Positions 20,578 through 34,497 of a stretch of DNA of 64,000 bases are shown one piece after another. Numbering within the stretch: position 1 is the stretch's first letter; each line of letters opens with the position of its first letter. The DNA lies in assembly GCF_006442815.1 (NCBI RefSeq), contig NZ_VFVL01000003.1, positions 237,001-301,000 on the forward strand. The letters are read 5' to 3'. The DNA is from Mesorhizobium sp. B2-4-3. GTDB lineage: Bacteria; Pseudomonadota; Alphaproteobacteria; Rhizobiales; Rhizobiaceae. The notes below the pieces were generated by a model. It saw only the letters and a list, made by a program, of their open reading frames with translations. It was not told the origin of the DNA and did not search any database. Both the position numbers and the translations under genes were made by a program.

Positions 20578-20721
20578 TAGGTGTGTCGAGATTCAGGTCA
20601 GGGCGAGTCGAGAACGATGGCTTCCGAGAACCGGAGCGGAGCGTACTTTAAGTACGTGAGCACCGGAAGCGAAGGAAGCCGTCGTTCGCAGGCCGACCTC
20701 ACCTGAATATCGACGCACCTA
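20578..20721. repeat. Long covarying hairpin element (family A, copy 1)
   Basis: About 144 bp that can fold into one long hairpin. The outer arms (20578-20598 and 20701-20721) match at 19 of 21 pairs. Middle arms (GGCTTCC with GGAAGCC; GAACG with CGTTC) and the apical CGTACTTTAAGTACG follow. It shares the core GAGAACCGGAGCGGAGCG and GTACGTGAGCACCGGAAGCG with copies at 28064 and 32061. The last three bases are the stop codon of the minus-strand gene at 20719. Confidence 0.85.
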
Positions 20722-21348
20722 GCCGGCGAAGATTACGGAGACTGTCCTGACGCCGTCTTTAGGCACATCGAGGCGGCTGGAAAAGCCGAATCTTTCGCCC
20801 GGCCCCAGCGAACGGTTGGATGTCCCCAGCCTGTAGCGGATGATGTTGGCGTTGTTGTCGGTGACGCGGATCTCGAGCGGCGGCAGCGTTTCCGACCTCA
20901 TCCCGTCATTGGCAGCCTCGCCATCCACGAACAGCACCGGCTTCAGGCCCGATTCATCGATGCGCGACGTCACGTCGGAAATGGTGAGCGCGCTCGCTGG
21001 CGCCGTGGTCGCCCAGAAGGGGCTCTGCCGGACCAGCGCATGACCGCCCGACACCCAGAAAGAGATCAGCGCTATGCCGACGCCGGCGATCCAGAACGTC
21101 GGGCCGCCGCGCGAGGATCGCGACGGTGCGGCCTCCGGTTTGCGCAGCATGCCCATGCCTTCCATCGATGGGGTCGGCGGGACCGGCGGCGGGAGCGCCG
21201 ACGGCGCCGCGGCAAATCGTGGCAGCACCACATAATCGGCATCGACGATGTCGGCTGCATCGAACATGACGCGCCCCGGCGCGGCATTTGATGCCGTGCC
21301 GGTCATGATTTCGCCGGAAACAGGGCGCGCGGTTCTCTCGTCAGCCAT
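20719..21348 (-). CDS. DUF3426-like membrane-anchored protein next to ftsE
   Basis: 209-aa protein with a proline-rich N-terminal cytoplasmic part (about 1-85), one membrane helix (FWIAGVGIALISFWVSGG, about 86-105) and a periplasmic beta-rich domain (LPPLEIRVTDNNANIIRYRLG ... DGVRTVSVIFAG) of the DUF3426 kind. Related alphaproteobacterial genes beside ftsEX often start with an MJ0042 zinc-finger CxxC; none is present here. It is divergent from ftsE across a CtrA-type box. The stop codon lies in a hairpin repeat. Function unknown; an envelope or division link is inferred from position. Confidence 0.65.
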   Translation of the reverse strand: MADERTARPVSGEIMTGTASNAAPGRVMFDAADIVDADYVVLPRFAAAPSALPPPVPPTPSMEGMGMLRKPEAAPSRSSRGGPTFWIAGVGIALISFWVSGGHALVRQSPFWATTAPASALTISDVTSRIDESGLKPVLFVDGEAANDGMRSETLPPLEIRVTDNNANIIRYRLGTSNRSLGPGERFGFSSRLDVPKDGVRTVSVIFAG

Positions 21349-21444
21349 TACGGCACCAGTGCAGTCTTCGTTTCTTTTGCGTAAACGCAATTGGTTAACG
21401 CTTCCCCACCGGAATGGCTTTGATGCGCGCTGAACGTCGCAAAA

Positions 21445-28063: not shown

Positions 28064-28209
28064 TAAGGCGCGCTGAGATTCAGGTCAGGCCGAGTCGAAA
28101 ATGGTGGGTTCCGAGAACCGGAGCGGAGCGTACTTATGTACGTGAGCACCGGAAGCGCAGGAAGCTGCCATTTTGCAGACCGGCCTCACCCGAAGATCAA
28201 CACGCCTTA
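28064..28209. repeat. Long covarying hairpin element (family A, copy 2)
   Basis: About 146 bp. The core is the same as in copy 1, with apex CGTACTTATGTACG. Arms AAAATGG and CCATTTT replace the GAACG/CGTTC pair of copy 1, preserving complementarity. The outermost TAAGGCG (28064-28070) pairs with CGCCTTA (28203-28209), which contains the TAA stop of the aldo/keto reductase gene on the minus strand. Confidence 0.85.
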
Positions 28210-29154
28210 GGCGCTGGCGCGGTCCAGCGCCCCAATGTCGTCGGCCGAAAGCTTGAGCGACGCGGCGCGGATCAAACTGTCCATTTGGGCGGGCGTCGTG
28301 GCGCTGGCGATCGGCGCGGCAACGCCCGGCCGCGCGATGATCCAGGCCAGCGCCACCTCCGCCTGCTTGGCCGAATGACGCTCTGCCAGGGCGTCGAGAG
28401 CGGACAGGATGCGCATGCCGCGCTCGTTGAGATATTCGGCGACGTCTTCGCCGCGCGCGCTTTGCCCGAGATCGGCCTTGCTGCGGTATTTGCCGCTCAG
28501 GAATCCCTTGGCCAGGCTGAAATAGGTGATGACGCCGATATCCTCGGCCTTGCAGAGGTCGAGCAGCGGTCCGTCGAGCGACGAGCGGTCGTACAAATTG
28601 TATTCAGGCTGCAGCACCTCGTAGCGCGGCAGGCTGCGCAGGCTGGCGACGTCGAGCGCCGCGCGCAACTGCCCGGCATCGAGATTGGAGCCGCCGGGAT
28701 AGCGGATCTTGCCCTTTTCGAGCAGCCGCTGATAGGCGCCGAGCGTTTCCTCGTAAGGCGTCGCCGGATCCGGCCAATGCGATAGATAGAGATCGATGAC
28801 ATCGGTCTGCAGCCGCTTCAGCGACGCGTCGACCGCCTTTTCGATATAGGCCGCGGAAAGGTCGCGCTTGCCCTGGCCCATGTCGGAACCGACCTTGGTG
28901 ATGATGACGACCTTATCGCGGTTGCCGCGGCTCTTCATCCAGTTGCCGATGATCGTTTCCGATTCGCCGCCCTTGTTGCCGGGAACCCAGCGCGAATAGG
29001 CATCGGCCGTGTCGATGGCGTTCAGGCCGGCGCCGACGAACCGGTCGAGCAGGTCGAAGGAGGTCTTCTCGTCGGCGGTCCAGCCAAAGACGTTGCCGCC
29101 CAGGACCAGAGGCGCGATGGAAAGGTCGGTGCGACCGAGACGGCGTTTCTGCAA
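28207..29154 (-). CDS. Aldo/keto reductase
   Basis: 315-aa NADPH-dependent (beta/alpha)8 oxidoreductase. The tetrad is visible as NAIDTADAY (Asp and Tyr, about 45-53), VVIITKVGS (Lys, about 77) and DLYLSHWPDP (His, about 122). The C-terminal AWIIARPGVAAPIASATTPAQMDSL is the coenzyme-binding loop of the general YhdN/AKR11-like group. The start appears to be TTG (29152-29154), with GGAGAT at a proper distance upstream and MQKRRLGRTDLSIAPLVLGGN as the family N-terminus. Substrate unknown. Confidence 0.9.
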   Translation of the reverse strand: MQKRRLGRTDLSIAPLVLGGNVFGWTADEKTSFDLLDRFVGAGLNAIDTADAYSRWVPGNKGGESETIIGNWMKSRGNRDKVVIITKVGSDMGQGKRDLSAAYIEKAVDASLKRLQTDVIDLYLSHWPDPATPYEETLGAYQRLLEKGKIRYPGGSNLDAGQLRAALDVASLRSLPRYEVLQPEYNLYDRSSLDGPLLDLCKAEDIGVITYFSLAKGFLSGKYRSKADLGQSARGEDVAEYLNERGMRILSALDALAERHSAKQAEVALAWIIARPGVAAPIASATTPAQMDSLIRAASLKLSADDIGALDRASA

Positions 29155-31037: not shown

Positions 31038-31104
31038 AGCATGGTCCCGAACCGAAGGTCCGCGTAGCAAAAAATTGGGCACCGGTTTTCGGGTAAGACC
31101 ATGC
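31037..31104. repeat. RIME-like palindrome (family B, copy 6)
   Basis: GAGCATGGTCCCGAACCGAAG to the complementary GGTAAGACCATGC, between the DUF2125 stop and the kinase start. It has a longer middle (CGCGTAGCAAAAAATTGGGC) than the other copies, like copy 7. Confidence 0.7.
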
Positions 31105-31127
31105 CGGCTAAGAAGAGTAACACGGCG

Positions 31128-32072
31128 ATGGCACAGCCGGTCAGACTGCTCAGCGTCGGCGCCTTCACCCTCGACACGATCCTTCGCGTCGAAACGCTGC
31201 CCGCGCATCAAGGCAAGTTCATCGCCAGCGACGGCGTCCAGATCGCCTCCGGCATGGCGACGAGCGCCGCCTGCGCCGCACGGCGCCTCGGCGCCCAGGT
31301 CTCGCTATGGGCGAGCGCGGGCGACGACCCGGTCGGCGACCAGCTGATCGCCGACATCGAGGTCGAAGGCGTCGACTGCAGCCTCATCCGTCGCGTCGCC
31401 GGCGCGCGGTCGGCGCTGGCGGCGATCCTGGTGGATGCGCATGGCGAGCGCGTCATCGTCCCCTTCTACGACAAAAAGGCGCAAGCCGATCCCGAGGCGC
31501 TGCCGCTAGCCGACCTCTCCGCTTTCGATGCGGTGCTGGTGGATGTCCGCTGGCCGGGGGCCGCGGCGCTTGCTCTGAGCGCAGCCAGATCGATCGGCCG
31601 CCCGGCGATCCTGGATGCCGACACCGCGCCCGTCGAGGTGCTGGAGCGGCTCCTGCCCTTGGCCTCGCACATCGTCGCCTCGGAGCCGGCAGCGCGCATC
31701 GTCTGCGGCCACGCGCTCGACCCCGAAAGCGCCTGCGCCGACCTTGCCTCGCGCACCGATGCCTTCGTCGCGGTGACCGGCGGCGCCGCCGGCACCTGGT
31801 GGCATGACCGGGCGACCGGGCGCGTGCGCCATGTCGAGACGCCGAGGGTCAAGGCGATTGATACGCTCGCCGCGGGCGACGTCTTCCATGGCGCCTTCGC
31901 CGTCGGCCTCGCCGAGGCCATGCGCATGGAGGAAGCCCTGCGCTTCGCCAGCGCCGCCGCGGCGCTCAAATGCCGGCGCTTCGGCGGCCGCCTCGGCGCG
32001 CCGGATCGGGCTGAGACGATGGCGATGATGGCGGCGCACTGGCCGGCATCCCAAGAAGGCAAAGGGAGCTGA
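31128..32072 (+). CDS. PfkB-family carbohydrate kinase
   Basis: 314-aa ribokinase-fold sugar kinase from MAQPVRLLSVGAFTLDTILRV. The N-terminal GAFTLD and GGx-type substrate region (DGVQIASGMATSAACAARRLGAQ) and the C-terminal DTLAAGDVFHGAFA (about 244-257) with the catalytic Asp are present. The usual GAGD anion hole reads AAGD. The ATG at 31101 is in frame but is part of the palindromic repeat, so I prefer 31128. Its TGA stop lies inside the hairpin element at 32061. Substrate not evident. Confidence 0.85.
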   Translation: MAQPVRLLSVGAFTLDTILRVETLPAHQGKFIASDGVQIASGMATSAACAARRLGAQVSLWASAGDDPVGDQLIADIEVEGVDCSLIRRVAGARSALAAILVDAHGERVIVPFYDKKAQADPEALPLADLSAFDAVLVDVRWPGAAALALSAARSIGRPAILDADTAPVEVLERLLPLASHIVASEPAARIVCGHALDPESACADLASRTDAFVAVTGGAAGTWWHDRATGRVRHVETPRVKAIDTLAAGDVFHGAFAVGLAEAMRMEEALRFASAAAALKCRRFGGRLGAPDRAETMAMMAAHWPASQEGKGS

Positions 32073-32204
32073 GATTCAGGTCAGGCCGAGTCGAAAATGG
32101 CGGATTTCGAGAACCGGAGCGGAGCGTACTTTTCGTACGTGAGCACCGGAAGCGCAGAAAGCCGTCATTTGCAGGCCGGCCTCACCTGAATATCAGTTCC
32201 CTTT
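32061..32204. repeat. Long covarying hairpin element (family A, copy 3)
   Basis: About 144 bp between convergent genes. The outer arms 32061-32081 and 32184-32204 pair at 19 of 21 positions. The core and apex CGTACTTTTCGTACG are shared with copies 1 and 2, with AAATG/CATTT arms. It contains both the TGA stop of the kinase (32070-32072) and the TGA stop of tyrC on the other strand (32193-32195), so it probably acts as a bidirectional 3'-end structure. Confidence 0.87.
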
Positions 32205-33128
32205 GGGGTGCTCGACCGCCTGCCGGCCAAAGTCCGGCACATCAATGTCCTGGCCGGCCTCGATGATCGAGCGGCGGATGGCGCGGGTGCGAGTGAAGAG
32301 GTCGAACAGCTTTTCGCCGTCGCCCCAGCGGATCGCCCGCTGCAGCGAGGCCAGGTCCTCCGAGAAACGCGCCAGCATCTCCAGGATGGCGTCCTTGTTG
32401 TGCAGGCACACGTCCCGCCACATGGTCGGGTCGGAAGCGGCAAGGCGGGTGAAGTCGCGGAAACCGGAAGCGGAATATTTGATGACTTCGCTCTTGGTCA
32501 CCGCTTCCAAATCGTCCGCCGTGCCGACGATGTTGTAGGCGATGATGTGCGGCAGGTGCGACACGATCGCCAAGGTCATGTCGTGATGCTGCGGGTCCAT
32601 CGTGTCGATGTTGGAACCGCAGCGCCGCCAGAATTCCGAAAGCGTCTCGAGCGCGGCGGGATCGGTGCCCGGCAGCGGCGTGAAGATGCACCAGCGGTTC
32701 TCGAAGAGATCGGCAAAGCCCGCATCGGGTCCGGACTTTTCCGTGCCGGCCAGCGGATGTCCGGGGATAAAGTGCACGCCTTCCGGCACATGCGGCTCAA
32801 TCTGCGCGATCACCGAGGCCTTGGTCGAGCCGACATCGGTGAGGATGGCGCCCTTCTTCAGCGCCGACGCGATCTCGGCCGCTACCTCGCCGGACGAGCC
32901 GACCGGCACCGAGACGATGACGAGGTCGGCGTCACGCACCGCTTCGCTGGCGTCTGTGCCGTAGGAGTCGCCAAGGCCAAGCTCCTCGGCGCGCTTCAGC
33001 GTCGATGCGCTGCGCGTCGCGATGGCGATATGGCGCGCCAGGCTCTCGCGGCGGATGACGCGAGCGAGCGACGAGCCGATCAGGCCGATGCCGACCAGCG
33101 CTATTTTCTCGAACATCGGTGATGTCAT
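32193..33128 (-). CDS. tyrC: Prephenate/arogenate dehydrogenase
   Basis: 311-aa NAD(P)-dependent enzyme of tyrosine synthesis. The Rossmann motif ALVGIGLIGSSLA (about 9-21) is followed by TDVGSTK (about 95-101), the HFIPGHPLAGTEKSG substrate block (about 118-132, with the catalytic His) and the C-terminal helical dimerisation domain (LAIVSHLPHIIAYNIV; FRDFTRLAASDPTMWRDV). It has no ACT domain, so it is the cyclohexadienyl-dehydrogenase type. It is co-oriented with and 6 bp downstream of hisC, the usual alphaproteobacterial tyrosine operon. Confidence 0.93.
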   Translation of the reverse strand: MTSPMFEKIALVGIGLIGSSLARVIRRESLARHIAIATRSASTLKRAEELGLGDSYGTDASEAVRDADLVIVSVPVGSSGEVAAEIASALKKGAILTDVGSTKASVIAQIEPHVPEGVHFIPGHPLAGTEKSGPDAGFADLFENRWCIFTPLPGTDPAALETLSEFWRRCGSNIDTMDPQHHDMTLAIVSHLPHIIAYNIVGTADDLEAVTKSEVIKYSASGFRDFTRLAASDPTMWRDVCLHNKDAILEMLARFSEDLASLQRAIRWGDGEKLFDLFTRTRAIRRSIIEAGQDIDVPDFGRQAVEHPKGN

Positions 33129-34380: not shown

Positions 34381-34393
34381 GGACTGCCAGACT

Positions 34394-34450
34394 TCCGTGG
34401 TGATTTGGCCGGTCGGCTTGCAGCCACGTTAAACAACTCGCTAAAGGGCC
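34394..34450 (+). ncRNA. SAM-II riboswitch
   Basis: CGTGG (34396-34400) and CCACG (34424-34428) form stem P1. The loop GTGATTTGGCCGGTCGGCTT and the downstream GTTAAACAACTCGCTAAAG are near-consensus SAM-II (metA motif) sequence, including the invariant GCTAAA (34440-34445). The class folds as an H-type pseudoknot around S-adenosylmethionine and precedes methionine genes in alphaproteobacteria. Here it leads metX-metW. Confidence 0.92.
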
Positions 34451-34463
34451 GTTTGCAACCTGT

Positions 34464-34497
34464 AACCGGCTTTGCGACGGCAATGCCGGTTTTTTGT
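34464..34497 (+). terminator. Riboswitch-linked intrinsic terminator
   Basis: AACCGGC (34464-34470) pairs with GCCGGTT (34485-34491), followed by a TTTTTG tract. It lies 14 bp after the SAM-II aptamer and 64 bp before metX, which suggests that SAM binding ends transcription early, rather than acting only on translation. Confidence 0.8.

Follow-up and report, generated by a model that had tools for sequence, protein, structure and literature searches.

Mesorhizobium sp. B2-4-3 carries a family of 144-bp hairpins that we interpret as a non-autonomous mobile element, mostly anchored at stop codons, oriented with replication in one chromosome arm of relatives and predicted to insert into stop codons of the lagging-strand template. 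We put the probability of this reading at about one half. It is drawn from comparisons of sites, in which no copy was caught in the act of moving. Within the 64,000-nucleotide stretch of DNA analysed here (the window), three copies lie on the + strand, which is the strand of the conserved fold: copy 1 at 20578..20721, with its anchored gene on the − strand, copy 2 at 28065..28208 and copy 3 at 32061..32204. Each is 144 bp long, and they score 162.5, 144.2 and 158.7 bits, respectively, against a covariance model. An earlier note on this DNA had described three repeats of ~145 bp; all were found, the second starting at 28065 rather than 28064, and the arm and apex variants quoted there agree letter for letter. 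End-to-end folding, also claimed there, is borne out by energies of −100.2, −88.8 and −98.0 kcal/mol for copies 1, 2 and 3 (short flanks included). The corresponding z-scores are −9.6, −7.4 and −8.3, and for each copy none of 200 shuffles folded as well. The apex cores, which occupy invariant alignment columns, span 20625..20674 in copy 1 (CGAGAACCGGAGCGGAGCGTAC loop GTACGTGAGCACCGGAAGCG...), 28112..28160 in copy 2 and 32108..32157 in copy 3, all on the + strand, and the exact core is present in other alphaproteobacteria.

The three window copies and seven others picked out by pattern were used to build a covariance model (R1), which finds 94 matches at E≤1 in the B2-4-3 genome (150 candidates scored); as the element almost equals its own reverse complement, many of these are one place read on the opposite strand. 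Once strand and locus duplicates were removed, and with four weaker matches left out, 54 places were examined genome-wide, 51 with arms and core and three partial; 41 of the 54 are 143–146 bp long. The search extends to relatives, as the earlier note had proposed: 24 of 25 same-genus genomes (this one included) match at E≤0.01, as do 2 of 16 genomes from other families. In a draw across the order, with scoring limited to 10 candidates in each genome, matches at E≤1e-6 came from 26 of 297 genomes and 8 of 122 genera; many of these matches are 140–145 bp long despite diverged arms. Exact cores occur in at least 117 stretches, with Pleomorphomonas, Sphingosinicella, Sphingobium, Asticcacaulis, Bosea, Devosia, Agrobacterium vitis, Phyllobacterium and others among the matches listed. 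Similar DNA is found on 32 plasmid records, 14 of them from Sphingobium. Core-bearing copies L215 and L182 come from metagenome bins labelled Nitrospirae and Proteobacteria, where transfer or misbinning is possible. The earlier note recognised no named family, and we find likewise that no Rfam match overlaps an element, either in the window at the gathering score or at seven loci up to E=5. A stop-codon-anchored hairpin of this sequence is not described in the portions of the literature surveyed. Only one Rfam hit reaches the gathering score in the window, a SAM-II (SAM_alpha) riboswitch at 34387-34464 (+; 78.9 bits), and elsewhere in the genome an EcpR1 small RNA (RF02500, 107.9 bits) lies at L007 2562-2673 (−).

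On the core strand, an outer arm is followed by a conserved foot (GAGATTC/GAATATC, bearing a single fixed mismatch) and then by a long stem of variable sequence, which is capped by an apex of almost invariant CGAGAACCGGAGCGGAGCGTAC-loop-GTACGTGAGCACCGGAAGCG architecture. Variants of this plan are seen among the 54 places. Seven have a different outer stem on the same core, two have the outer palindrome alone, and two have an extra palindromic insert at the CCGG of the core. The nested insert is a second palindromic repeat, of the CCTTCGCCGGCC...GGCCGGCGTAGG type, seen within the apex at L078 1471-1682 and L082 1558-1835; it occurs twice in L082 and is also present in L100, L104, L132, L291 and L293. 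At L083 1350-1700, the core sits within a larger multi-hairpin array, inside an outer stem of the second kind, and the neighbouring gene ends 51 bases from the core. GANTC (CcrM-type) letters are found in copy 1 (GATTC at 20590-20594 and GAGTC at 20605-20609), and recur in the same arm of other copies of the main family. Several loci (L118, L091, L098, L382, L084) retain the outer palindrome and lack the apex. The idea that such outer-only palindromes (these and L085) are precursors was rejected at two loci: L084 (compared with L396) and L382 (compared with L017 of B2-4-3) are apex deletions, because a full copy with the same arms lies at the same gene in another genome. After insertion, copies decay at some loci by apex deletion and partial loss.

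Most copies fit the end of a gene. Copy 1 ends on the TAG stop (20719-20721) of a 223-aa ORF with no NCBIfam match (20719..21390, −). Copy 2 overlaps the TAA (28207-28209) of an aldo-keto reductase-like gene (28207..29154, −), which has NCBIfam matches under curated cut-offs. Copy 3 is flanked by convergent genes, both with stops within its ends; the TGA of the anchored prephenate/arogenate dehydrogenase gene (32193..33128, −) lies 9 bases inside the element, and that of the opposing gene (31101..32072, +) lies in its left arm. Genome-wide, with ORFs called by a codon model, the gene stop falls between −3 and 0 relative to where the element starts in 38 of the 54 places, with offsets of +6 or +9 in six, +20 in two, and other or none in eight. 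When a single gene caller is applied to both ends, stops fall at −3 to 0 in 36/54 anchored ends versus 6/54 mirror ends; end composition therefore cannot account for the anchoring. Ten anchored genes were compared with NCBIfam, among them a RecN-like ORF; HrcA, CcmB and prephenate dehydrogenase are matched nearly to the end of the profile. The fit extends to the hairpin itself. Across 46 copies, the frequency of end-to-end pairing is 0.30–0.57 outside the element and 0.80, 0.96 and 0.98 at positions 0, +1 and +2, such that the stop codon and its far-end complement vary together.

Beyond Mesorhizobium, among the matches listed, an ORF of at least 80 codons ends at −3 to 0 in 13 of 25 copies, versus 3 of 25 mirror ends. 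This sample comprises 24 listed contigs with 26 of 27 forward places (one partial dropped), 25 of which are not near a contig end. Among the order-wide copies listed, 19 of 20 of which come from other families, a stop fits at −1 or 0 in 8 of 20; the other 12 are without such a fit, which counts against a mobile element that targets stops.

Empty and filled versions of the same site were compared among relatives. All 61 genus genomes have the aldo-keto reductase-like gene next to copy 2; of the 30 in which the site was compared, nine carry the element, whether full, partial, enlarged by an extra insert or reduced to the outer palindrome, and 21 are without it. By eye, the end of the encoded protein is about the same in empty and filled versions. 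Copies 1 and 3 are also polymorphic among 20 relatives (L130 gave no match for copy 3); the copy 1 site is filled in most and empty in L121, L128, L134 and L135. Of four copies lying upstream of the window, three are likewise polymorphic and one gave no match. Of 42 further copies in four relatives, 40 were comparable and yielded 136 comparisons, of which 36 bear the core and 100 are coreless or degraded; absence was called by a text match to the core, so degraded copies and those with extra inserts fall among the 100, which is an upper count.

Right flanks could be aligned in 74 of these cases, and five comparisons at three loci show exact spacing: L012 (against L364 and L368), L023 (against L314 and L360) and L069 (against L306). 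At L012, GGATT^GAGG becomes GGATT[AGGG...CCCT]GAGA; at L023, CT^AGGACG becomes AT[AAGG...CCTT]AGGACG. In both cases the element has entered directly after the T of the stop codon, ahead of its two purines, and no target sequence is duplicated. A stop is restored by the bases with which the element opens (AA or AG at the clean sites, GA elsewhere), so the host protein ends as before. A TA target duplication of the type made by mariner-type MITEs was considered and dropped, as it would suit L023 whereas L012 (T^GAG) does not conform. Nor is the match to the stop always exact to the base, since the filled genes at copy 3 differ, by eye, from the empty ones in their final residues. Right flanks at most of the other loci differ by gained or lost bases, and some empty sites (e.g. 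L331, L337, L362) retain arm-like letters, which could be a scar or a likeness of the target. The small number of clean empty sites (five of 74 alignments), together with the arm-like letters in several, counts against the mobile reading.

The earlier note took covariation between the arms as a sign of selection on a folded RNA or cruciform. The covariation itself is strong. When 89 distinct copies are placed on a tree, same-branch co-substitutions at structure pairs number 157, 130 of them from one Watson-Crick pair to another, as against a null mean of 37.5 (sd 5.7, largest of 500 draws 54) and 26–44 for slid pairings. In an alignment of 96 distinct copies (Mesorhizobium and some distant ones) that was fitted to the structure, 96.8% of cells are paired, 41 of 50 pairs have changed on both sides (0/500 shuffles as high), and cells with two-sided changes number 433, versus 94 when shuffled and 52–75 for slid pairings. 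A stricter, R-scape-style pairwise G-test, akin to the check proposed in that note and with a null in which substitutions are scattered over the tree, supports 2 of the 50 pairs at E<0.05, does not flag the remainder, and finds no significant pair outside the structure. Among orthologs from 13 relatives at the w1 locus (that of L123), one-sided changes are pair-keeping in 37 cases and breaking in 24, and two-sided changes in 33 and 4; at the c217 locus (also 13 relatives), the figures are 38 and 53, and 71 and 9. One-sided changes are therefore at most mildly filtered, perhaps not at all at c217, and compensated states accumulate.

A symmetric cruciform is not supported. In 91 copies of 138–150 nt, G.T/T.G cells number 331 and A.C/C.A cells 43 (188 versus 42 when only Watson-Crick-majority pairs are counted), and the single changes inferred on the tree include 112 from Watson-Crick to G.U and 43 to A.C. 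A cruciform would give G.T and A.C equally; the fold is thus specific to one strand rather than double-stranded. It is on the strand antisense to the anchored gene that the tolerated wobbles occur; by RNA parameters this strand is the more stable in 88 of the 91 copies, in an alignment that was itself fitted to the antisense strand and in which the counts lean that way.

The most serious alternative to a mobile element, though we think it unlikely, is a structured RNA at transcript 3′ ends (a terminator, a stabiliser of mRNA ends or an antisense RNA) that is selected at these genes, with the repeats being secondary. The strong covariation would fit such an RNA, as would the anchoring and orientation of copies at genes, the conserved internal loops of the core and the presence of a copy at the same gene in several relatives. 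Against it, orthologous genes of close relatives are without the element, 24 of the 54 places are flanked on both sides by genes that run in one direction, and one of these copies sits in the short gap of a gene pair that looks like etfB-etfA. Moreover, it is the antisense strand that folds better, yet the left-hand gene that could transcribe it points each way equally often (27 versus 27). TTTT occurs within −3 to +12 of the element end in only 1/54 places in the gene sense and 3/54 on the other strand. An intrinsic terminator in particular was rejected, as no U tract follows the hairpin and copies also lie between same-direction genes.

It is also conceivable, but improbable, that pairing is maintained by mutation, through template switching or copying between arms or copies, rather than by selection. 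Arm types recur among copies, and the element at L123 is a recombinant with arms from two different allele types and hence a mismatched stem; conversion between copies can be a source of the double changes seen between orthologs. Such copying sits poorly with the conserved mismatch, which persists (position +12 is paired in 5 of 46 copies), and with the passage of single changes through G.U and the excess of G.T over A.C cells described above, which strand-blind repair would not produce.

If the hairpin is mobile, it would need an enzyme from elsewhere. Neither Y1_Tnp (Pfam PF01797) nor Y2_Tnp was found in the B2-4-3 genome or in G004, a complete relative; of 16 same-genus genomes, all with element matches, one has Y1_Tnp and ten have Y2_Tnp. 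In control searches, Y1_Tnp (PF01797) was detected in 5 of 14 genomes and Y2_Tnp in none. Either the family relies on a different enzyme or it has ceased to move here, and the absence of both domains from B2-4-3 and G004 counts against the mobile reading. It also weighs on the proposal that this is a REP-type element mobilised by a RAYT (a Y1 tyrosine transposase), which we consider a poor prospect. In the available portion of PMC3733652, GTAG-type REPs often provide flanking ORFs with their TAG stop, and REP dimers are sometimes found within longer palindromes, both of which are reminiscent of our hairpin; however, Y1_Tnp was found in just that one of the 16 element-bearing genomes, and the hairpin is 144 bp long rather than a unit of 20–40 bp.

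The orientation of the copies bears on a mobile origin from another direction. The gidB gene is an origin-side marker, and with the terminus assumed to lie opposite, 105 matches at E≤1e-13 were placed on the chromosomes of four complete relatives (G009, G004, G063 and G011; 150 candidates scored per genome). The copy-rich arm, designated as such only after the counts were known, holds 82 of the 105, of which 81 are co-directional with replication and one is head-on; in G004 alone the ratio is 30:0. The other arm holds 23 copies, 10 co-directional and 13 head-on, and this failure of the bias to be mirrored counts against the mobile reading. GC skew, sampled every 0.33–0.36 Mb in three of the four genomes, is consistent with this placement and most pronounced in the copy-rich arm. 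Elements are oriented 61:1 in windows of strong skew and 14:10 in those of weak skew (genes 236:208). Gene-strand bias as the source of the polarity was rejected, as genes in the same strong-skew windows stand at 261:268. Across eight genomes, 72 of 83 exact-core matches lie on each genome's majority strand, with shares from 7/10 in G063 to 8/8 in G052; copies at sites common to several genomes are not independent. In the B2-4-3 draft, 12 of the 14 contigs with two or more copies have them in a single orientation, which 1 of 10,000 random draws reached; this is a test of strand uniformity. A chromosome-polarity signal that serves the segregation or replication machinery as a landmark, stop codons being tolerated sites, would account for the 81 of 82 and is nonetheless very improbable, given the unmirrored other arm, the small number of copies there and the separate cause that the stop-codon fit would require. 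The earlier note was right that the family is more than a simple dispersed repeat, but with its stop-codon anchoring and one-arm replication orientation it is also dispersed and mobile-looking.

How, then, might a mobile hairpin reach these sites? Fork orientation, the lack of duplication at clean sites and the one-strand fold suggest insertion of a single strand at replication. The stop codon of co-directional genes lies on the lagging-strand template, the antisense fold would be the strand synthesised against the sense strand as the fork passes, and the folded antisense strand may serve as the substrate of a trans-acting enzyme. Known lagging-strand elements act via the strand in the lagging template. 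The folding strand here is antisense, unlike theirs, which counts against the mobile reading.

More tentatively, the hairpins may represent an undescribed class of alphaproteobacterial mobile hairpin that enters lagging-template stops, rebuilds the stop from its own two leading bases and copies or matches its complement at the far end, in hundreds of genes and several orders. We regard this wider proposal as possible but doubtful. If true, it would describe a mobile element that enters genes at the one point where little harm is done. Dispersed palindromes are commonly dismissed as unexplained clutter; this family unites an address at the stop codon, a direction that in one arm follows the fork, and a fold that compensating changes preserve on one strand. 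The combination makes the spread of non-autonomous hairpins testable, as it predicts the base of insertion, the strand and the link to replication. It would also mean that screens for terminators or small RNAs in alphaproteobacteria may repeatedly pick up these hairpins.

Finally, we compare the element with known systems. It looks like a relative of REPs, RIMEs and MITEs, yet as far as can be tested it fails a defining feature of REP, RIME and CIR. RIMEs (Rhizobium-specific intergenic mosaic elements), reportedly described by Osteras in 1995, are said to be about 108–109 bp, to contain two large palindromes and to be confined to the Rhizobiaceae. Like them, our element is palindromic, intergenic, multi-copy, mosaic and rhizobial. 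Unlike RIMEs, which are compared here by description rather than by letters, it is one hairpin of ~144 bp (41/54 at 143–146 bp), is tied to stops, and extends beyond the Rhizobiaceae, with exact cores in Sphingobium, Sphingosinicella, Asticcacaulis, Bosea and Pleomorphomonas among the matches listed. Integron attC sites belong to gene cassette arrays with IntI and carry RYYYAAC/GTTRRRY boxes; no such boxes were seen by eye in the copies, which are dispersed.

The CIRs (CcrM-associated intergenic repeats) of Caulobacter and Brucella are, in the available part of PMC2229807, ~110 bp long, with two linker-joined arms and GANTC at a terminal loop. The element shares with them an alphaproteobacterial host, GANTC letters, structure and an intergenic location, but is set apart, by that partial description, as a single end-to-end hairpin with GANTC in the arms and an apex loop without it. 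GTAG/CGTC-tagged REPs, as the available text of PMC3733652 has them, are units of 20–40 bp with an unpaired tag; they too are extragenic palindromes, with GTAG ends that often give a TAG stop and with some units in larger palindromes. Our sequences fail the 20–40 bp palindrome with an unpaired GTAG/CGTC tag of that account, and no Y1 transposase was found in the B2-4-3 genome. The prokaryotic MITEs listed in the portions seen of PMC10969869 and PMC2229807 mostly have short terminal repeats and target duplications. Our element is likewise small, non-autonomous, intergenic and built of inverted repeats; in contrast to the MITEs of those excerpts, the whole of it pairs, and its clean sites are without duplication. 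For an IS91/Helitron-like element, the defining Y2 transposase was not found in B2-4-3 or G004, though it is present in 10 of 16 same-genus genomes.

A parallel in behaviour may lie in single-strand transposition. IS200/IS605-type ssDNA transposition makes no target duplication, and none is seen here at two clean loci (four comparisons), most other sites being unclean; as to the orientation bias with replication that marks this type, copies stand at 81:1 in one arm and at 10:13 in the other. Differences from IS608 and ISDra2 lie in the TnpA (Y1), which was not found, in the antisense folding strand and in the stop-codon target. The likeness to these lagging-strand ssDNA elements, as far as the available text of PMC6006769 describes them, would lie in a folded single strand and an orientation linked to replication, and by that analogy the hairpin may work as a lagging-strand single-strand element does.
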